DNA from: Gossypium raimondii
Taxonomy: Eukaryota; Streptophyta; Magnoliopsida; Malvales; Malvaceae
DNA length: 64,000 nt
Direction of reading: 5' to 3'
Assembly (NCBI RefSeq): GCF_025698545.1
Contig: NC_068577.1
Coordinates: 2,265,501-2,329,500 of the forward strand
Shown here: positions 18,073-31,600 of the stretch, one piece after another
Layout: each line of letters opens with the position of its first letter
Numbering within the stretch: position 1 is the stretch's first letter
Translations under genes and position numbers: made by a program
The notes under the pieces: model-generated
Database searches by the model: none
What the model saw: the letters and a program-made list of their open reading frames with translations, nothing else
What the model was told of the DNA's origin: nothing

Positions 18073-20773
18073 ATGGTGAAACCGAGTGAAAATGGGTCTC
18101 AGTCAATAGCACCTTTTCTAAAAAAATGTTATGAAATGGTAGATGATGAGTCTACTGATGCGATAATTTCATGGAGTCAAAATAATGATAGTTTTATAAT
18201 TTGGGATATGACTGAATTTTCAGTCCATTTGCTCCCTAAGTTCTTCAAGCACAGCAATTTCTCCTCTTTCATCAGGCAACTCAATATTTATGTGAGTCCC
18301 CCCTGCTTCTTTTTAATGGGTATCTTACTTTCTCAAAAAAACATGTCAGAATTGGGGGGTTGGTGTTTGAGTTTGGATTTTGGACTTTTAAATTGGGTTT
18401 TGAGTGTTTTCTTTTTATGTCTGTTGTGTTCTTGTTTTCTTGTTGAAGCAAGTCTTTGCTATTCTTATGATGGAATTTTCTTTTGATGATTTGTGTTTTC
18501 TTTTTTTGTTGCTTAGGTTTGTTGTTAAATTGCTTTTTTATTAGTTATGTGTTTGGTTTAATTCTTGTGAGAGCTTGGTTGTGGTGTTCAAGTTGCAGTT
18601 ACTGGGAATTTAAGTTTCTGAGTGTAAATTCATAGAGGATTGTTGCTTGTTTTCAATTTCTAATATATAGGAATACACTAGAAAGGAATATTTGCTAGCA
18701 CTAGCAGTATTTCTGGGTAATTTTTATGACTCAATTTTGCTTCAATGGTGAGGTAATTATTAGTTTGAATTTTGCCAGACTAGAAAAGGCTAAAATGGTA
18801 TTGACTTAGTTTCTTCATTTTGTAATGTTGAGATAAACAAAGTAGAACCAAGTTTTGCTAGACAAGTCATTTGATTTTGATGGGATGCGGTTCGGTTCAA
18901 TTGAAATTGCAGTGTAAAATTTCTTTATGGTAGCAAGGAAATTAGGGTTAGTAAAGAAAGAAGTACGGGAAATGGAAAATTTTTTGCTGTAGAATGTTGA
19001 AAGAAAATGATAATTAAGCATATTCCACAATATGCATTTCTCCATTTTGATGCTTACTATATTTTCTAATTTAAAAATAAAGAGAAGAAAATAACTAATT
19101 ATTTTGTATCATTAGGCCAATATTAGTAGGCTCAAATTCATTAGAGACAGTGGCTAAATTTTGGAGCCCTTCCAATCCTGTCAAAAAAGTATGTGGGGGT
19201 GAAAGTGTTGGTGGAGTTAGGAGACTTTAACACCATTTATGGTTACCCTCTATGTTACTCGGGATATTGGAATATTCCTGACATAGATATGTTCAAGTTT
19301 TACAATGTCCAGATATGCATCAGATACAGGCTCTGATTAACATAGGTTACCTTTTTTACTAAATTTCTTAGAATTGGCAAAATCTAAATCTTGTCTAATA
19401 TCCTTTAAATTAAATTTTGGAAAAATTGTTGAAATTAATTGGACTGCTGTTTTGTTATCAGTCACTCTCTCTCTTTTCCTACTCATTTCAGCACTTATTT
19501 GTTTTAGCACAATGAAATGATTAATTCACCGGACTGTCTCATACAATTTGAATGATTTATTGCTTCTTGCTTACATTGGAGGTGTGTAAGGTATTTCTGC
19601 ATGTTTGTTCTACCTTTTCCATTTTGATTTTGTACTTCATTGCCGGGTGGAAGAGTGGCAGAAGCAAATGCTTATCTTTGGCTTTTTTTTTTTTAATGCT
19701 AGTATTTAGAAGGTACTCATAATGCTTGGATTTTTTGGTTGAACTGTTAATTCATTGAAAACATTAGTAACCCTTAAAGTTTTTTCCAGGGTTTTAGAAA
19801 AATTGATACAGACCGTTGGGAATTTGCAAATGATGGATTTGTCAGAGGCCAAAAGGACTTGCTTAAGAATATAGCTAGACGGAAACACTCCCCGGGATCT
19901 GAGCAGCGTAAACCATTGCAGCAGCAGCCACTACAGCAGCTGGAGAACACTGTTGGATCATGCGAAAACAATGAAAACACTGCACTGTGGAAGGAAGTTG
20001 AGAATTTGAAGACTGATAAAAATGCTCTGATGCAGGAATTGGTTAAACTTACGCAGTTCCAGGAAACTGCAGACAATAAGGTTCTTCTCTTGAAGGAACG
20101 TCTTCAAGGAATGGAGAAAAGTCAGCAGCAGTTGTTATCCTTCTTAATAATGGCTATGCAGAGCCCCGGCTTTTTGGTCCAACTGATTCAACCAAAAGAA
20201 AATAATTGGCGCATGGCTGAACCAAGCAATATGCTAGAACAAGTTACAGAAGATGGTGAACCAATTGCTTCTGACAATATGATAGTAAGGTATCAGCCGC
20301 CAGTGGATGGCACATCAAAACCGGTACTCGCACCAGTGGTAGATTGCGAAAATCCTCATGAATCTGATAACTCTTCAGATGGAACAAAAGATTTTTGGAT
20401 GAATATTGATTTCGTGAAAGTGCTTATGGATGAAAGTCATACACCTTTCATTCCCCCAGATTTACACGATGATGGTGCGTGGGAAAAACTTCTTTTAGGC
20501 AACACCTTTCTAGAGAATAATGACGATGGAAATCAAGATAAAGAAATCCCCATGAACTCTGGTATGGAAATGGAGGTAACAGATTCCGAAACCCATTCAG
20601 AAAAGTCGTGTAGTTTTGAACAGTTACTACAAAATATGGGGAAATCCCAGAACCTAGAGATTGAACCACTTGTAAATGGATCACCATTAGAGAAATCTCC
20701 AGACTTGGAACTTCTAACAGACCAAATGGGCCATTTGACTTCCAAGAGTACTAAACCGCACCAAACTCCTTAG
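18073..20773 (+). CDS. HSFA8: Heat stress transcription factor A8
   Basis: Two exons, 18073-18291 and 19790-20773, join at TAT|GGT across a 1498-bp GT-AG intron and give 400 aa. The intron sits inside the DNA-binding domain ([16 protein letters not shown]), the position conserved in plant Hsfs. Domains in order: winged-helix DNA-binding domain (about residues 12-105), a basic ARRK nuclear-localisation stretch at its end, a heptad coiled-coil oligomerisation region (HR-A/B, about 140-195), and a C-terminal acidic part with the AHA-type activation motif [11 protein letters not shown]. The N-terminus (MVKPS) and the block [13 protein letters not shown] are diagnostic of subclass A8. It binds heat-shock elements and activates transcription in the nucleus under heat or oxidative stress (family knowledge). 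Cys19 lies in that block. Its 3' end converges with VIT1. Confidence 0.92.
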
Positions 20774-21582: not shown

Positions 21583-23278
21583 CTAGGGATGGATAACCTT
21601 AGCTATGCCAAAAGCAGCAGCAGATGCAATGGCACCAATGAGAGCAGTTTGGAATGCGCTTTTTACCGGTTTGTTGCCGGTGAAGTAACCTTTGGCGTAG
21701 CCGAAGATGAGGAGTGCAGCAATGGTGATGACCACTGATGCAACCACCGCATCCTGGGCTCTTGGAATGAACATGTAAGGAAGGAGTGGCACCAATCCAC
21801 CCAATATGTAAGAAACGGCAATGTTGAATGCGCTTTGTAATGCTCTTCGTGGATCTGGCTTCTCTAACCCCAGCTCAAACCTGCATATGTTTACAGCAGT
21901 GTTTTACCAAATATGTTGGATTTTATGAAAACAATGGGTTCCCATCAATATCCAGCAAAATGTTCTAAAAGAATAAATCTATACATGATTCCACTCCCAT
22001 TGAAGGAGGGAATGAATGTGTTGAAAATATATGGAAATCTTTGTTTGTAACCAAAAAGAAGAGTTTTTTTTTAGAAGGAAAAAAAAAAAGGCCCCCCAAG
22101 TAGCATGCCAGAACCTGTTCCAGTCTGAAGCCGGCCACATGGGGGCACTTTCTGAAAAAGGAGAAAAGAGCATTGATCCGAATATTTCAAAAAGCAAATT
22201 TGGCATTTTGCTCCACTTTTGGAGAGTGAGAATAGGGCCACACATTCACTTAATTCGTCAAACACTATTCACTATTGATTGTTCACAATCTGTCTAAAGT
22301 CATTCCCATAGATACAAACACTTAATTTCATCAGCCCGAGGCGGTGTTGTGTCAAAGAGTCAAAATCCCAACTCAACTGTGTAGTCCTTTTTATGTCTTT
22401 TGAGTTTTGAGTTTTCATTAGCCGATGGCCAGGAATTGCTTAAATCATGGATTCCACCCGTGAAGCAAGACATTGGTTCAACCCTTAAACTGGAATCAAA
22501 GGTTTTCTCTATTTACAACATCGAATTTTTATCATTACAAGTCTAAGCAATGAAAGTATGGTAATAATTACAAGCATCCGTGATAAGCAAACTTACTTCA
22601 TCATGAAATCAAGCCAAGCTTGAGGCCTTTTTCTTAGGGCATTCACCACAGGTGCATATTCATGTGGCTCTACCCCATACTCTGCTAGTATTTCAGCCAC
22701 CTCAGCAGCCTCTGCATTTTCAGCCACGACACAATTTGCGACACTCAAATGAATCTCAATCCTTAAGTAACTTAATCAAATTACTTTTAAAAAAATTTAT
22801 AAAAAATTTAATTATTACCAACATCAGGCACATTGATAATTTCTTCTTCCTCTCTTTTCAATTCCCTCGTGTAATGATCGGCTTCACTTTTAGCCGCAAG
22901 ATACCTGCAGAAATGGAAAAACCTACGTAAAATCCTAATAATAACTTTCACTCTTTTTCTTGCAGTTTCTTAGTAACCAAACAGTACCCATTTTCGAACT
23001 TATCAAAACAATGAGAAGTATATACAGAGTTACCCGCCAAGTCCCATAGAGATGGCTCCAGCGGCAACCTCAGCGATACCAGCGGTAATAACAATGGAAG
23101 AAGAGGCATTGGCGCCAGACAATCCGGCGGCAAGAGCAAAGGGCACAGTTAAACCATCGGAGACGCCGATGATGATGTCGCGGACGACCTCTCCGGCGGT
23201 GAAGTGTTTTTCCTTGTGGTGATTGAGAAGGGTTTGCTTCTCGGGTTCAATGGTAGCTCTGCTGTTTTGAGCAGCCAT
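21583..23278 (-). CDS. VIT1: Vacuolar iron transporter 1
   Basis: Four exons, 23278-23034, 22904-22819, 22711-22597 and 21880-21583, all GT-AG, total 744 nt and 247 aa, as expected for plant VIT1. It is a five-helix tonoplast transporter that moves ferrous iron (and manganese) from cytosol into the vacuole in exchange for protons (family knowledge). Visible signatures are the first membrane segment DIIIGVSDGLTVPFALAAGL, the small-residue helix AGIAEVAAGAISMGLGGY, the acidic cytosolic metal-binding stretch (HYTRELKREEEE, then EAAEVAEILAEYG) and the two final helices. The start at 23278 (MAAQNS) is preferred over an in-frame ATG at 23308 because it matches the family start. Intron 3 (21881-22596) contains no recognisable gene. 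Confidence 0.95.
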
Positions 23279-23354
23279 GCTTTTTGGTAAGTACTCGAAA
23301 TGATGCAATGGAAAGGGGAGTCGTAGAGAAATAAGAGCGGTGTGTGTGTGTGTG

Positions 23355-23367
23355 TTTTATATATAAA
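23355..23367 (-). promoter_or_regulatory. Probable TATA box of VIT1
   Basis: Minus-strand ATTTATATATAAA lies about 80 bp before the VIT1 start, followed by a short CA repeat (23340-23354) in the presumed leader. Confidence 0.55.
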
Positions 23368-23519
23368 TCCGTTCCAAAATGGGAACAACGTTTGTGCTTC
23401 TTTGGCAAGTGTTCACATATTCCAAAATTGTCTACTTTTTTACTAATATTATTGTCCACTCTTGGAATTTGTGGTTATGAGTACAGGTTTTACTTTTTAT
23501 TTAATAATCTCGCTATCAT

Positions 23520-23680
23520 TTATACATGCAGTATTTAGAATTATTCATAGTCTCTTTCTAACTCATAAATATGAGCATAACATGCTTCAACACATTTGAA
23601 TCTACATCTTTCTGCATTGACAATAATTTCCATGCCAATTAAACTAAGACTCAATCGACATTTTGAGGTTTTATTTTACA
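23520..23680 (-). mobile_element. SINE copy (tRNA-derived family)
   Basis: Read on the minus strand it has TAGTTTAATTGGCATGG (A-box-like), AGATGTAGATTCAAATGTG (B-box-like), the block CATATTTATGAG and ATGAATAATTCTAA. It matches the other copies in this window in the same order. Confidence 0.6.
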
Positions 23681-23812
23681 AAAATAAATGCATAAAAATA
23701 CAAGCTCAACTCTGATTATACGTAAATTTTTGAGTCATGGCTTAGCTGACATCATTATTATTATAGCAATCTAATTGCATTTTAACTCTAATCTATTCTA
23801 ATTAGTTAGTTT

Positions 23813-24965
23813 GGGAGTTTCATTTTAGTCACCCAAATATTAAAGCTCTAATGACGGTTAACTATACACACCCCTATCATGTTTGCACTTTCTTTTCTGT
23901 CACTCAACTTTAGTTTATTTTCATTTTGGTCACCTAAAAATACATTTTCTTAAGTATTGATTTTGGTAAAATAATCAATGATTAAAGTGAAAACGTGGTA
24001 GAAACTAAAATAATAACCAAAAATAGTCAAATTGTACTTGTTTATCTTATTGTTGAAAAGTACAAATTTTTGTTTTAAAAATATAAAATTTTAAATATTA
24101 AGATTCAAAATTATAGCAACAAATCGGTTGACATTATCGATGAATAAAAATTTTCAACAATTTATTTAATTTATTTTATATTTTAGAATTATTTTCAATA
24201 ATTATCAATGAAAAGTATTATTTTTAATAGTTGTCTCTGAAACTCAAATTTCTTTTAACTATATATATGATGTTGAATATGTCGTGCTAAGCTAAAAGTA
24301 GGGAAAAATCATTGCAATTAATTAAATTGATTAATTTTATCTTCCATGCCAAACAAAACTCATAATTTTTTTATTACTTATTCATCTAAGCGAAGAACAA
24401 GCAATTAATAAATTAATTGCGATGATATTTTCTTTTACTTTTAGCTTAGCATGGAAAAATGGAGATTATATAATCAAAAGAAATTTAAGTTTCAGAGACA
24501 ATTATTAAATACAAGTTATTTGAGTTGATTTCGTTGATTTTAAAATTTAAATGGAGATTTAATTAATTAATTTTAATATTATAGTAACAAATCAATTGAT
24601 ATTATCAATGGATTAAAACATTTCAACAATTTATTCGATTTATTTTGATGTTTTAAAATTTAAATTTTAATATTAAAAGATTAAAATATTCAGCAATGGG
24701 ATAAACAAAGTACAAATTAAAATTTTGTGTGAATTATTTTAGTTTCTATCACATTTTCGCTTTAATTCCTGATTTTTTTACCCTAATCAATACTTAAAAA
24801 AATATATTTTGGGTGACCCATATAAAAATGTAAACATGATGTGGCATGCATAGTTAAACGGTGTTAGAGATTTAACATTTGGATGATTAAAATGAAAGCA
24901 CCCTGACCAAATTGCAATGATTTTATTTTGAGTGACCAAAATGAAAGTGTCCTAAAAATTGGATG
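23813..24965. mobile_element. Large foldback element of about 1.15 kb
   Basis: The left end (TTTCATTTTAGTCACCC, later TCACCTAAAAATACATTTT) is mirrored at the right end (ATATTTTGGGTGACCC, then GATTAAAATGAAAGC). A second inverted pair lies nearer the centre around 24240-24310 and 24420-24510 (CTCTGAAACTCAAATTTC versus GAAATTTAAGTTTCAGAG). A direct repeat around CAACAATTTATT is also present. No open reading frame. Confidence 0.6.
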
Positions 24966-25324
24966 ACCGACGAGAGAATTTACCCTAAAAAAACCTCCGA
25001 TATTACAGGGTACATTCTATCATATGTCCCCCTTTGACTATCCTTTCTCTAATGTAGTATTGGTGCCAACTTGTTCAGTGTCTCTTTTTGCAAGGTAATT
25101 GACTGCCTGCAATTTGCAATAACAAAGCTCGACAAAGAGGCTTTTACTCCTAATGGTGCTTTGGTTTTGGTAGCTCTTCAATGTTCGTGAAGTGGAGATT
25201 CCCCAATGGAAGGTGATGGTACCACAAAGTTTTTTATTTAATTGCCAATTGAGTGTTTGTTTTATTGACATCGGTACTGTTACCAATGCAGAAATACATG
25301 AATTTCAGTACATTAAACATATTA

Positions 25325-25440
25325 TCCTCCGATTTAAGGGGAGGGAATGGGCTATGGGTAGTTCTAGACATTGTATCAAAAAGAGAATATATGATAAAAA
25401 TTTATTGAAGTCATATTTTTTTAAAAAAAAAATATTATTC
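25325..25440 (+). mobile_element. SINE 3' half
   Basis: GGGGAGGGAATGGGCTATGG, TAGTTCTAGACATTGTATC and a poly-T/A tail match the 3' part of the SINE family. The tRNA-like half is not recognisable here. Confidence 0.5.
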
Positions 25441-25610
25441 TGATCATATATGCTTTTATTGACACAATACTTAAAACTACCCATAGCTTCTCCTCAACAC
25501 ATAAATAGAAAGATAATGTGCTTTAATGTTCTCAAACTCACGTCTTCCTACATTGACAATAATGCTTATTTTAATTGAGCTAATACTCAATCAAACAATT
25601 AAAGTCATAT
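25441..25610 (-). mobile_element. SINE copy (tRNA-derived family)
   Basis: On the minus strand: TATTAGCTCAATTAAAATAA (A-box region), GACGTGAGTTTGAGAAC (B-box region), TCTATTTATGTGTTGAGGAG and ATGGGTAGTTTTAAGTA. It lies tail-to-tail with the SINE 3' half immediately before it. Confidence 0.65.
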
Positions 25611-26507
25611 TTGCATACAAATTTATATGGATATGCACATAAAATGCATACTTATTATTTGAACAAAAAGCTATATGTACTTAGAAAAATCTTGTAAATA
25701 AGATGAAAATATAGGGTTAAACAAAATCCGATTTAATTCAAAAAATTTGAATTAAATAATTGATTTGAAAACATAGACGCTTAATTCAAAATTTGAATTA
25801 AATAATTTGAGTTAATCGAGTTATTCACATCACTAGAATAAAAATCAAAATTTTCAATTCAACTCAAATATGGATTACACAATTCGAGTTATCCAAAATA
25901 AAAACAAAAACAAAAACAAAATTACATCGTTTTAATAAAAATTTACCTTTTATAAAATTAAAAGTTATAAAATAAAACTACATCATTTTAACCTATCAAG
26001 TTAAAAGGCAAAATCATTATATTGTTTATTTTAAATAAATAATCTTGTACTTCATTTACTAGTTAAATAATTAATCTATGTAAACGCAAGATTGAATATG
26101 AATAATAAAATCCATCAACCCGACTCAATTTGATACAAAAAATTTCAAATCGAGTTTAATTGCTAAAATAAAATTCATCTACTCGAATAATACGAAATCG
26201 AATACTCATCCCTACTGAAATATAATTAATTTTCCAACTTCGAAAAATTGAAAGCTTATTTCATAAGAAGCGTAATTCGAGATATTTATTTTAATATATA
26301 AAAACATTTTTCTAGATAATTATCAAAATAAGTCTGCATAGAGTTTCTATAAAAGTAAATATAATCAGTAAATTTACAAACCAAACTACTACTCATAGAT
26401 ACAGTACTTTGAGCAAATCAAATGCAGTGCCGTTGGTGGTTTAAATAGCATTTCCCTGGTTGAATACATAAACACTACAAAAGTTTCATAACATAAGAGC
26501 ACCAAAT
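25611..26507. other. Intergenic, no gene recognised
   Basis: AT-rich DNA with AATTTGAATTAAAT-type short repeats near 25730-25870. Nothing else seen. Confidence 0.4.
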
Positions 26508-27228
26508 TTACTTGGGATTTCTTAGAACAATTATAACAGAATCTCCCCTAAGGAACATCTTACTGATGAATCTGTCCTTGTTAACTGGTAGTGCCTTTTT
26601 CTTGCCTTTCCCGGTCTTCGGTACCTATACCGTAATAGAGAATCGATTTAACCTCTGTATTTGATTGTAATAAGATGAAGGCAAACAAAAGGAGGAAAGA
26701 AAAACAACCTCAGTCCACATTTCCCTGACATTTTCCAGAACCATGTTGCAGTGGCGATCGAATGCTCTCACTCGGCCGAGAAGCTTTTTGTTGTTGCGAC
26801 AGTTGATAAGAACCTGTTTCCATAACGCTAATTTCAGCTCTAGATAAAGCACATTTACAAGTATTGCTAGGGGGTACGGAAGATGGGCTTATTACCTGAG
26901 TGTTATTTTTGACACTCATCATCAAAACAGACAGCGGTCCAGTGTTAAATTCCTCTTCCTCATTCTTTGTAGTCTGCAGGTAGATAAGCAAACAAGAGAT
27001 GAATGTCAGCAAAGATTCATACAAGAAATGCATTCTTTTTGTTTGAATGGAGGGGGAAAACTGCAGTTATGACAACTTACATCTTCTTCCATTGGCCGAC
27101 TGCAAAAAGAGAAGCAAACAAAGGAGAGGGTTAGTATACAATCTACGAAATGCAGCAAGCAACTTTTTAATGCTACTAAATGAACACGGCAAAGGAAAGA
27201 AAAAAGGATAAACCAATTAGTACCTCAT
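26508..27228 (-). CDS. SMD2: Small nuclear ribonucleoprotein SmD2
   Basis: Five coding exons, 27228-27224 (ATG AG), 27099-27081 (19 nt), 26973-26896, 26813-26709 and 26624-26508, all GT-AG, total 324 nt and 107 aa. SmD2 is one of the seven Sm proteins forming the ring on U1, U2, U4 and U5 snRNAs in the nucleus (family knowledge). The Sm fold is seen in full: Sm1 from [20 protein letters not shown] through [18 protein letters not shown], the variable loop [12 protein letters not shown], and Sm2 in [14 protein letters not shown]. The Met-Ser-Arg-Pro-Met-Glu-Glu-Asp start spans the first three exons. A non-coding 5' exon (about 28268-28350) is joined across a 987-bp intron (27281-28267) to the leader of the ATG exon (27280-27229). 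That intron houses three snoRNA genes. Confidence 0.95.
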
Positions 27229-27721
27229 TCTCAAATACAGAAGTCTTTAGTGATATCTCTCAGTAAACCTAACACAAAACCTGCAAAAAGTATGCAAATT
27301 CCATTAAAAAAATCAAGAAACCCTTACTACACTTGAAAATGGAAATTTTTTCTATGCTTATGTAACCACATGAATGATAGATTTGTCAAAATATTTGTAG
27401 AAAAAGAAAATGCATATCTACACAAGAACTACAAAAATTGCCCAATTGAAAATTACAATATTATGGCTTCACTGTAAATTGCCCATGTGACACAAACAAA
27501 CAGAGTATTTGTCAAAATCTATGCAAAATCTATTCACATGAATACTCAGACTTGGGTGTGAGTATTTGGACAGAGTATGTTAAAAGATCATATCTCCAAA
27601 CCCATGTCCGGATAGGAGTTAGACATTGGTGTCCAAAACAGGTATTTCAAGAAAATCAGAATTAGGGCAACATAAGAGAAAAAGGTATCAAAATACTATC
27701 TATATTGAAAAATCTTCTGAA

Positions 27722-27804
27722 ACTCTTCAGCTCAGGTCTCCATAAAATTTCAGCATTTATTAGCTCAGGAGAACGAAAGTTTTTATATTAAACATCATCA
27801 GAGT
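27722..27804 (-). ncRNA. Box C/D snoRNA, U59/snR54-type, copy 1
   Basis: On the minus strand a terminal stem ACTC/GAGT encloses box C-like CTGATGA (27801-27795), D' CTGA (27768-27765) and box D CTGA (27730-27727). The guide before D' is complementary to the 18S rRNA word AAGAACGAAAGTT with one mismatch, at the base next to D'. It lies in the SmD2 5'-UTR intron in the sense orientation, as expected for an intron-processed snoRNA. Confidence 0.8.
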
Positions 27805-27929
27805 GACAGAAGACCTTCAAATGCCTAATACCGTAAAGGTCAGTTGTAAGCTATAGTAATAACCAAAATGCAAAACAAATTCTTTTCCTAAATCTAATTG
27901 AAGAACAAATTGTAGCTAATTCATATCAA

Positions 27930-28014
27930 CCTCTTCAGTTCAGGTCTCCAGAAATTTTCCGCATGGATTTTCTCGGAAGAACGAAAGTTTCTTATTTTCA
28001 ATCATCCTCAGAGG
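27930..28014 (-). ncRNA. Box C/D snoRNA, U59/snR54-type, copy 2
   Basis: The terminal stem CCTCT/AGAGG is perfect. Box C is AGGATGA (28008-28002), one mismatch from consensus. D' is degenerate, CCGA (27976-27973). Box D is CTGA (27938-27935). The 13-nt complement to 18S AAGAACGAAAGTT (27977-27989) is perfect. Confidence 0.8.
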
Positions 28015-28079
28015 CAAAAATGATACAAAAATGGCGAACACAAATATGACAGTAAATAGCAAAAAACAAAAACTACAAT

Positions 28080-28173
28080 GTCTCTTCAGCTCAGGTCTCC
28101 ATATAGAAATTCCGCACAGATTTTTTCTCTCAGAAGAACGAAAGTTTTTCAAATTTAAATCATCATTAGAGAC
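28080..28173 (-). ncRNA. Box C/D snoRNA, U59/snR54-type, copy 3
   Basis: The best-preserved copy. It has terminal stem GTCTCT/AGAGAC, consensus box C ATGATGA (28166-28160), D' CTGA (28133-28130) and box D CTGA (28089-28086). The guide (28146-28134) pairs perfectly with 18S AAGAACGAAAGTT. By the box+5 rule it would direct 2'-O-methylation of the fifth residue (A), the site served by human U59 (Am1031) and yeast snR54 (Am974). Confidence 0.87.
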
Positions 28174-28378
28174 ATTTTTTCCTATCGATAGAAAACTGAA
28201 AACCTAAACAGCAAAAAAGAAATCCATGAGAAAGTAAGGTTAAGTAAAGAGAAGAGCGGAGATTTACCTGATTGGCACCTTGACCGATGAGATCTGATTT
28301 CAAACGAAGCAGAGTGGAGAGCCGTTTTATAGAGACTCCTCCGACGACCAAAAGAAAAACCCAAATGTTCGCTTCAAA

Positions 28379-28431
28379 TTAGGGTTTTGGTTGTTGGGCC
28401 TGAAACTTCTATTTAGTTACTATTAGGGTTT
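28379..28431 (-). promoter_or_regulatory. Telo-box / site II promoter of SmD2 and its snoRNAs
   Basis: The minus strand contains AAAACCCTAA (28388-28379), GGCCCA (28400-28395) and AAACCCTAA (28431-28423), just upstream of the 5' non-coding exon. Telo-boxes paired with TGGGCC/GGCCCA site II elements mark promoters of ribosome-biogenesis and translation genes in plants (family knowledge), fitting a joint SmD2-snoRNA transcript. Confidence 0.7.
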
Positions 28432-28449
28432 GAATATTTGGGCTGTATA

Positions 28450-29068
28450 GTTTGTTTAGTTTATGGGCTTACGCCTTTCAGGTAATCAATTTCCTTTTGC
28501 AGTGCAATCTAATTATCAATTATCTAATGATGAAAATACACAAATATTAATACCTAATAGGATTTTTTTTTAAAAATTATTTTTAATTATTTCTTAAACT
28601 TTATTTAAAAATTAAAAGAATTTATTTCAAATTAATTTAATTTAATTTATTTATTAATTTCATTATAAGTTCGATAATATCTGCTTTTTTTACCTAATAC
28701 ATTACTCAAACCCACATCTTTCTGTATTAACAACAATATCTATGCTAATCAAGTTAAAACTCAATCAACTAAATAAAATTATTATTTATTACGATAAATA
28801 GTTAAAGTGTTAATTATTATTAATAAATAAGATATAATCCAAAAAATTGAAGATGGGGACAGTCTCAAATCACAATGATGGAGCAGACACCTTTGAAATG
28901 AGAAGATAATATAACACAAAATAAACAATGATTACACAGAATTGTGGGGATTCATTCGCCCACCACCTTTTCATTTATCATGTTTTCCATTAAAATGATA
29001 ATTAACTCAACTATTATTATTATTATTATTTTCATATTTATTTACCCTTTAATTTGGTGGAAAAACCC

Positions 29069-29125
<57 letters not shown>

Positions 29126-29410
29126 TCTCACAATTTTTTTCTGCTTTTCTGTGTCTTTAAAATAAAAAGTTGAGCCTAATTTGCCGATAACACCCGATCA
29201 AGGTTGGGATTAAATTATATATTTTTACGGTAGTAAAAATTTACTTTTATTATTTTAATAGCATATATTTTTATATTTTTAAAGGATTAAATCAATTTTA
29301 TTATCATTTTTGAAAGCCAAAGTTCTATTTAATTATTATTAATTTAAAATTTTATAAATTATAAAATGCCTAAAAGGAAATCCTGCTATCCCCCGGGCTC
29401 CACCCTTACA
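28450..29410. other. Intergenic with SINE relic and AT microsatellite
   Basis: A minus-strand SINE fragment (about 28690-28770, with CCACATCTTTCTGTATTAAC on the plus strand) and AT-rich DNA. No gene seen. Confidence 0.45.
29075..29124. repeat. (AT)n microsatellite
   Basis: About 25 uninterrupted AT units. Confidence 0.95.
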
Positions 29411-29700
29411 CTAGAGGTGTTCATGTGTCAGGTTTGAGTCAGGCTAAAACATGATCTTAACGTACTTTATGCTTGTCCGACTTAAAATATGGGCCTAAAA
29501 TTTTGCTCAAACCCGCCCTTATTTGTAAAAGGCTAATTCAAGCCAATTTTAAATCCCCATATTATTTTTTAAAATATTTATATTACATTATTTTAATATT
29601 TAATAACTTTATAGAATTTTTATTTTTCGAACTTAATATTTTTACCTAAACCTTTCTAAATTTCGAACAAAACTTTAAAGCTGGACAAATAGTTAACACA
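29411..29700. repeat. Dispersed repeat, AGAGGTGTTCATG family
   Basis: Begins with AGAGGTGTTCATG and contains AAAATATGGGCCTAAAATTT, matching the start and core of the copy at 51395-51765. Non-coding. Confidence 0.55.
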
Positions 29701-31600
29701 AATTATTTAAAATTTGGGGGTAAAAGCTTAAGAGCAGTCTAACTACAAAGTGATGAAAAAAGAGAAGTAGAAAAGCCAAATATTTAGAATAGCAAAAGAT
29801 GCATGCACGCCTAATAAAGACAACCCCAAACTATAGCATTAGCAACCCATTACTTGAGAGCCTCCCATGTTATTTTTGCAATATTCCACGTGTATAATCA
29901 TTAATATATTTATATATTATGATTTAATTAAAAGTTTAGATTTCATAATTCATGTATTTCCATTGTTTTATGTCAAGTTATGCTCTCTATTATATTTTAA
30001 TTATTTTTTCTTCTAATGGTATCATGTGTCTAGAGTGTTCAAGAAAATCTCAAAAATAATATAATTAATTTTAATTTTAATAATTTGATTTGTTAGTGCA
30101 TATTTTATAAATATAAAAACTTTCAAGGACTAAAAAATAATAATTTTTGGAGAAGGGCAATTGTAGTATTTAAGAAGCCTCAATGATTCACCCACCTTTA
30201 TAGGGTTTGAAAGGAGGATTTCTCACAAGATTGGATGCTAGCCCTATTTCCTAAAAACCTATAGGGTTCAATCTCTAAACCACAATATATATATATATAT
30301 TGTGTTATACCAGGATATTTGGTATAATAAAGGTAGCTTTTCGATCAAGTTAAATTAAATGTATTATCTTTCCTCATAAAAAAAATAACTTTTCGATCAA
30401 GTCACTAATTTGAACATCAAATGTGTCTTGAAGTATAAGCTTTAGCACCCTATAATTTACTTTCATCTTGCAAGAGTCTAAGAGTGTATCCAAACCTATC
30501 TCTAATTCCGATCCATCTTCATTGCGACTGATATATATATATATATAACAAAACTGGGGAAATGCCCGTATCTTCTTAGGAGAAATATCAAAATACTTAA
30601 TGTCAGTAATAGAAATAGTGACAGACAATTCCCTGCAAAAAACAATGTGGAAAAAGTATAGACCATGCCATGTGCAACATGCTTGCTGCTGCTGCTGCTG
30701 CTGTGCTCTCCCTCTATTTTTCACTTTATTTTCTTTCTTTTACCTCGTTCCTTGCTTGGTTCGTAGGATTCTCCCTTCCTCTCCATCCCCCACCCTTTTT
30801 TTCTGCTCTTTTTGTCTGCCACCTTCCTATCTATCCCATATTTAAAAAAAAAAAATTTAAACAAGACATTGTTCCCATAATGTAAGAAGACTGAGGGTCC
30901 CAATTTTAAGATTTACAAAGCTTACCATACATCACCCCATTTACCTAAAACCGACGAAGATTGTAACAATGAACCAAATCTTTTTAAGGGAAAACCATCA
31001 CTCAATGCCAACTCTATTACAAACATTCCCATCATATACTATTAGGCCCCCAATGTATTCAAGTTGTAGCTTGAAAAAGAAAAAAGAAATATAAATGCTA
31101 CAACTCAAACTTACCTTTATGGTATGTTTTACTAACAGTGCATAGAATTATATTAACCCTTGAAATAAATTTTATGATTATATGAAGGAAAATAGTGATT
31201 AAGGGTGTAATAAGGAATAATATACTATTGAAACCATGAAAAAAGAATGCCACCGAAAGAAGAACAAAATCATATAATAGATCCAATGAAATCTGTCAAA
31301 GTAGGGGTAGTTACAATAGGTCTTTGAAAACATTGTTATATGCATCCCATCAACTTCAATTCAATACCATTTTCACATGCTGTACAATCTCAACAAGAAC
31401 CAAAACAAAAAAAATATCAGTCTTTAATGGCATTGTGGGACTGCCTTTCTCAACCAACCCCAACTAAGTTCCAAAATGAGGGTCTAATCTTGAAGACCAA
31501 CTTCAATTCATTGCCAAAAAAAAAATGTATGATTTGATCCAACTGTTAAAAGCTATTTTAAGTACCCTTTGTTGAGTATCTACCAAAAACTCTTGAGTTA
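29701..31600. other. Intergenic, no gene recognised
   Basis: AT-rich with a CTG repeat at about 30682-30702. An overlapping minus-strand open frame (30724-30374) encodes a short glutamine run and no domain I recognise. Sequence from 30900 to 31600 may include the PLATZ 3' flank. Confidence 0.35.

Follow-up and report, generated by a model that had tools for sequence, protein, structure and literature searches.

Genes described as hosts of plant snoRNAs are mostly ribosomal-protein or ribosome-biogenesis genes according to PMC4660826, and in rice 15 of the 31 intronic snoRNA loci reported in PMC3022908 lie in ribosomal-protein genes. Among single snoRNA families, the Arabidopsis box C/D snoRNA SnoR59 has been assigned two methylation sites, 18S A978 and 25S G1855, in Table 1 of a RiboMeth-seq study (PMC8053127), and the same table notes multiple gene variants for it. 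Human SNORD59 (U59, RF00273), yeast snR54 (RF00473), and AtsnoR59 share one row in PMC3511168, where they are given a corresponding 18S site and clan CL00065, and where the Arabidopsis site is numbered Am975. The main text of PMC8351944, which concerns rRNA modification in Arabidopsis, makes no mention of SnoR59 or of these sites under the names we looked for.

The stretch analysed here (hereafter the window), 64,000 nucleotides of Gossypium raimondii DNA, carries three segments that are very probably functional genes for SnoR59 (snoZ159/U59), borne by the SmD2 gene and predicted to guide rRNA methylation at two sites. When the whole 64 kb window was searched on its two strands against 4227 Rfam families, all three segments matched RF00160 (snoZ159/U59; gathering threshold, 39 bits) over the full model length, namely copy a at 28080..28173 (94 nt; 65.7 bits, E = 8e-11), copy b at 27929..28015 (87 nt; 62.7 bits, E = 5e-10), and copy c at 27721..27805 (85 nt; 56.7 bits, E = 2e-8). 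No other Rfam family exceeded its cutoff on either strand of the window. Around the host gene, in 23000-31000, a search for snoRNAs of other kinds that was relaxed to E 1 returned a miRNA family as its sole extra match, which was set aside at 22.1 bits against a cutoff of 83. All three box C/D snoRNA genes share the minus-strand orientation of SmD2, being sense to it, and occupy a single 5'-UTR intron, with spacers of 64 nt (a-b) and 123 nt (b-c). An earlier note on this DNA, written from the letters of the sequence, had placed three tandem C/D snoRNAs at 27722..28173, about 70-125 bp apart and on the sense strand of one intron; the Rfam search it proposed found the same three segments, all above the cutoff and all in the snoZ159/U59 family, with the computed spacing close to that estimate and the strand of every copy like that of the host. 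Its U59 assignment agrees with both the RF00160 matches and the Arabidopsis methylation table.

The host intron and the identity of the host gene also stood as that note had described them. The exon-joined coding region (26508..27228, minus strand; 27228-27224, 27099-27081, 26973-26896, 26813-26709, and 26624-26508) gives an unbroken translation of 107 aa, which matches the Pfam LSM domain at 4e-18 and human SmD2 at 1e-56. The 987-nt intron at 27281..28267 (minus strand) has GT..AG borders that can be read from the sequence, CAG/gtaaat at 28267 and tttttgcag/G at 27281, and lies entirely upstream of the ATG at 27228. A TATA box at 28331 precedes a non-coding first exon, which is followed by intron 28267-27281 and the coding exons. 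The cluster starts 94 nt past the 5' splice site with its first snoRNA and stops, with its last, 440 nt short of the 3' splice site. A pattern scan of 28268-28768, run without a shuffle control, marked a putative promoter at 28326..28469 (minus strand), comprising two telo boxes (AAACCCTA, from 28431 and 28387), three site II motifs (RGCCCA, from 28469, 28444, and 28400), and TATAAA from 28331. The combination of telo box and site II, as these motifs are defined in PMC3022908 and PMC4660826, is associated there with plant snoRNA and ribosome-biogenesis genes. Because the promoter and intron are shared, the snoRNAs and SmD2 are likely co-transcribed. Upstream of the SmD2 promoter, a long run of TA dinucleotides occupies 29075-29124.

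A search of the genome with the SmD2 protein gave seven matches, which resolved exon by exon into two SmD2 genes, one on C13 (the window) and one on C5; a weak match on C10, 31% identical, was not taken as SmD2. The C5 gene has the same layout, including telo-box and site II motifs upstream and a 5'-UTR intron with three RF00160 segments in the order found in the window (a', 34.5 bits, below the cutoff of 39; b', 59.3; c', 39.5). Each C5 copy has its positional partner as its closest window copy, with 79 of 85 aligned bases identical for b'-b, 66 of 73 for c'-c (70 of 73 in a separate alignment), and 51 of 78 for a'-a. The partnership is reciprocal for b and c, whose closest C5 copies are their partners, but not for a, which resembles b (69/87) and c (66/85) more closely than it does its own decayed partner. 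With a' left aside, copies that are not partners are 71-79% identical to one another, and the C-box variants of b and c are common to their respective C5 partners. The shared order, the variant boxes common to b/b' and c/c', and the partner identities thus indicate that the triplication probably predates the duplication of the SmD2 gene. The two SmD2 coding sequences differ by a Ks of 0.77 (on 66.5 synonymous sites) and a Ka of 0.008, and neutral sites are therefore far diverged. In the neighbourhood, a heat-shock transcription factor gene (window 18073-20773, plus strand; PF00447 in its first exon) is also paired beside the C5 SmD2, with four blastn pieces at 18535-20280 matching the stretch adjoining that gene, as would be expected if a segment or the whole genome had been duplicated. 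The VIT-family gene (PF01988) located between the heat-shock factor and SmD2 (window 21583-23308, minus strand) had no blastn match at E 1e-8 in 80 kb of C5.

Comparison of the two introns bears on a condition that the earlier note had set for itself, namely that boxes and guides be conserved against a diverging intron. Between the two SmD2 paralogs this held for copies b and c; it did not hold for copy a, which has a decayed partner. Over aligned bases, the identity between window and C5 was 93% for b, 96% for c, and 67% for a, compared with 87-91% for four wholly coding exon pieces (the borders of one piece being off by 1-2 bases) and 54-64% for the intron outside the snoRNAs. When gaps were counted as differences, the values became 91% for b (p = 2e-12), 82% for c (p = 3e-7), and 55% for a (p = 0.53) in a Fisher test against the 1118 other intron bases (55%), each base being treated as an independent observation. 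Among 501 overlapping 80-nt windows of the intron that contain no snoRNA, the highest identity was 76%. Judged from these alignments, copies b and c are conserved between the two paralogs. Copy a showed no excess conservation relative to its C5 partner (p as above), and its case rests on the Rfam score and its perfect guides.

The boxes and terminal stems reported previously were found in all three copies, with two C boxes deviating by one base. Box D reads CUGA near the 3' end of every window copy. The C boxes read AUGAUGA (a), AGGAUGA (b), and AUGAUGU (c), so that the consensus RUGAUGA is matched exactly by a and with one deviation each by b and c; the D' boxes are CUGA (a), CCGA (b), and CUGA (c). 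In kink-turn geometry, the position changed in the C box of b is a flipped-out loop base and that changed in c lies outside the core, and both changes should therefore be tolerated. Counted by hand, the terminal stems comprise 6 bp (a), 6 bp with one G-U (b), and 5 bp (c), and a terminal stem is present in the predicted folds of all three copies, where that of a extends to 9 bp and c gains a second, outer stem of 8 bp beyond the terminal one. Relative to shuffles, the folding energy was distinctive chiefly in c (z = -2.52), less so in b (-1.72), and was not unusual in a (-0.21) or in the three C5 copies (0.52, 0.43, and -0.56). The second pair of the terminal stem is U-A, C-G, or A-U in different copies, but the covariation was weak over the six sequences, its score being reached by 26 of 500 shuffles and its share of paired cells by 80 of 500, in an alignment with one row (C5 copy c') off by one base at its 3' end.

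Each copy carries two guides, searched against the 18S (full model) and 25S (partial, cut at the 5' end) rRNAs of the same genome, both identified by Rfam. The guide to 18S rRNA at box D', which the earlier note had also described, is perfect over 13 nt in a, 13 nt in b, and 12 nt in c; it abuts D' in the first two copies and stops one base short of it in c. The guide to 25S rRNA at box D, which that note had overlooked along with the paralogous cluster on C5, is perfect over 11 nt in all three copies and ends one base before D. All of these lengths fall within the roughly 10-21 nt typical of a box C/D antisense element. Five bases upstream of D' lies the last A of AAGAA in 18S rRNA and, correspondingly for D, the G ending UCAG in 25S rRNA; these predicted sites equal 18S A978 and 25S G1855 in Arabidopsis numbering, both of which are assigned to SnoR59. 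The register was checked by hand count in 25S, where the neighbouring sites of the Arabidopsis table (C1847, C1850, and C1860) each coincide with a C of this genome's sequence, and in 18S, where U1013 falls on T at the right distance. When each copy was put through 1000 dinucleotide shuffles, scored for the single longest run against 18S and the partial 25S, the observed length was attained in 3 cases for a, 2 for b, and 19 for c; copy c also shows 11 nt of unrelated complementarity at another place in 18S. A single guide is thus only moderately beyond chance, suggestive rather than decisive; what carries the case is the Rfam scores together with the conservation seen in b and c.

The genome as a whole (750.8 Mb, 281 contigs) was searched for both the family and its guides. 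The Rfam search scored 62 candidates and listed 4 U59 places, a lower bound because it overlooked the two weaker C5 copies, one of them just over the cutoff (39.5 bits), which came to light when that locus was scanned. Exact matches to the 25S guide plus box D occurred at 7 places, the two clusters accounting for 5 (reversed control, 0). For the 18S guide plus D' there were 5 such places, the window cluster accounting for 3 (reversed control, 1); exact patterns of this kind cannot detect guides with mismatches. For each of the 4 places outside the clusters, 3 kb of sequence gave no Rfam match up to E 0.5 and no C/D snoRNA was discernible by eye, and these places were taken as chance. A reading of the three segments as chance or repeat-derived sequence devoid of snoRNA function could draw on the 2 to 19 shuffles in 1000 that contain a run as long as the 18S guide, but we consider it extremely improbable given Rfam E-values of 8e-11 to 2e-8, two guides in every copy, the persistence of b and c across the paralogs, and the fact that 8 of the 12 exact guide-plus-box matches in the genome fall inside the two clusters, with the other 4 lacking any snoRNA match.

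The C5 cluster has decayed unevenly. Copy a' (L003:1662-1739) has lost its C box and its 18S guide and has one change in its 25S guide, and looks like a pseudogene. A single change interrupts the 18S guide of b', and c' lacks 12 nt beside the C box, its 18S match being shortened to 9 nt, which might still work weakly. All 11 nt of the 25S guide are intact in both b' and c', as is box D, and the best predicted folds retain a terminal stem in b' but not in a' or c'. The 18S guide on C5 is thus lost, broken, or shortened in all three copies, and the 25S guide is kept in two of three. It is conceivable, albeit tentative, that the paralogous clusters have divided the work unequally, with the window as the only place found with a full 18S guide and C5 keeping only the 25S guide in two of its three copies; a pattern drawn from three copies is a lead rather than proof. 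The same decay, affecting a' and all three 18S guides, makes single copies appear dispensable, and it would also suit a redundant triplication in which only one or two copies function and the rest are becoming pseudogenes, as would the one-base C-box deviations of window copies b and c. We regard this alternative as rather unlikely, since all three window copies have both guides and box D intact, and the unusual boxes of copy b, C box AGGAUGA and D' CCGA, have both been retained in its C5 partner while the flanking intron diverged.

Under the preferred reading, that of three functional SnoR59 genes, Pol II would transcribe the cluster within the SmD2 pre-mRNA from the telo-box/site-II promoter. 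Endonucleolytic cleavage between the copies and exonucleolytic trimming would release the snoRNAs from the 5'-UTR intron, either once it has been spliced out or by cutting it directly, and each copy would assemble with fibrillarin, Nop56/58, and Snu13 and would guide 2'-O-methylation of 18S A978 through the D' guide and of 25S G1855 through the D guide. Animal intronic C/D snoRNAs lie at a short fixed distance from a splice site; the window cluster, at 94 nt and 440 nt from its splice sites, does not. Such distances would allow release without splicing, although PMC4660826, which describes plant polycistronic snoRNA precursors as cut endonucleolytically and intronic plant snoRNAs as released from introns produced by splicing, favours splicing first. 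The arrangement could also be taken to mean that the cluster mainly regulates SmD2, with snoRNA excision competing with splicing of the 5'-UTR intron and thereby tying ribosome production to the supply of the spliceosome core. One intron, one promoter, and one strand are shared by the snoRNAs and the host, telo-box and site II motifs stand upstream of both paralogs, and an endonucleolytic cut would be expected because the middle copy could not be freed by trimming from the intron ends alone. Even so, this explanation is improbable: the C5 SmD2 has been retained (Ka 0.008) beside a decaying cluster, so that SmD2 appears able to do without the snoRNAs. A coupling of snoRNA output to the splicing machinery, as the earlier note put it, may follow from the arrangement.

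New relative to that note are the guide to 25S rRNA, the C5 cluster, and the uneven way in which that cluster has decayed. With one cluster intact and the other partly decayed, the duplicate gene pair makes it possible to read from sequence how much each guide is needed relative to the other, and how much the number of copies matters. Should the unequal division be true, the two guides of one snoRNA family would be under separate selection, and a conserved guide for 18S methylation would be carried by one spliceosome core gene and no other gene. If not already described, the locus would extend the known plant snoRNA hosts to a gene of the spliceosome core.

Arabidopsis SnoR59, which we take to belong to RF00160, has the same predicted pair of sites, 18S A978 and 25S G1855, as the window copies. 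RF00160 falls in the same clan, CL00065, as RF00273 and RF00473; SNORD59 and snR54 reside in host genes other than SmD2, and the plant family has its own Rfam model, with its 25S guide before box D as a possible further difference. Multiple gene variants are noted for Arabidopsis in the table of PMC8053127, and the window has three tandem SnoR59-type copies in the SmD2 5'-UTR intron. The SmD2 cluster is a further instance of an already known kind, the intronic plant snoRNA cluster: those described in rice and in the Arabidopsis fibrillarin genes likewise place several snoRNAs in one intron, with Pol II transcription and telo-box/site II promoters (PMC3022908, PMC4660826). It differs from the known intronic clusters in plants in that its host is a spliceosome core gene and all of its members belong to one family.
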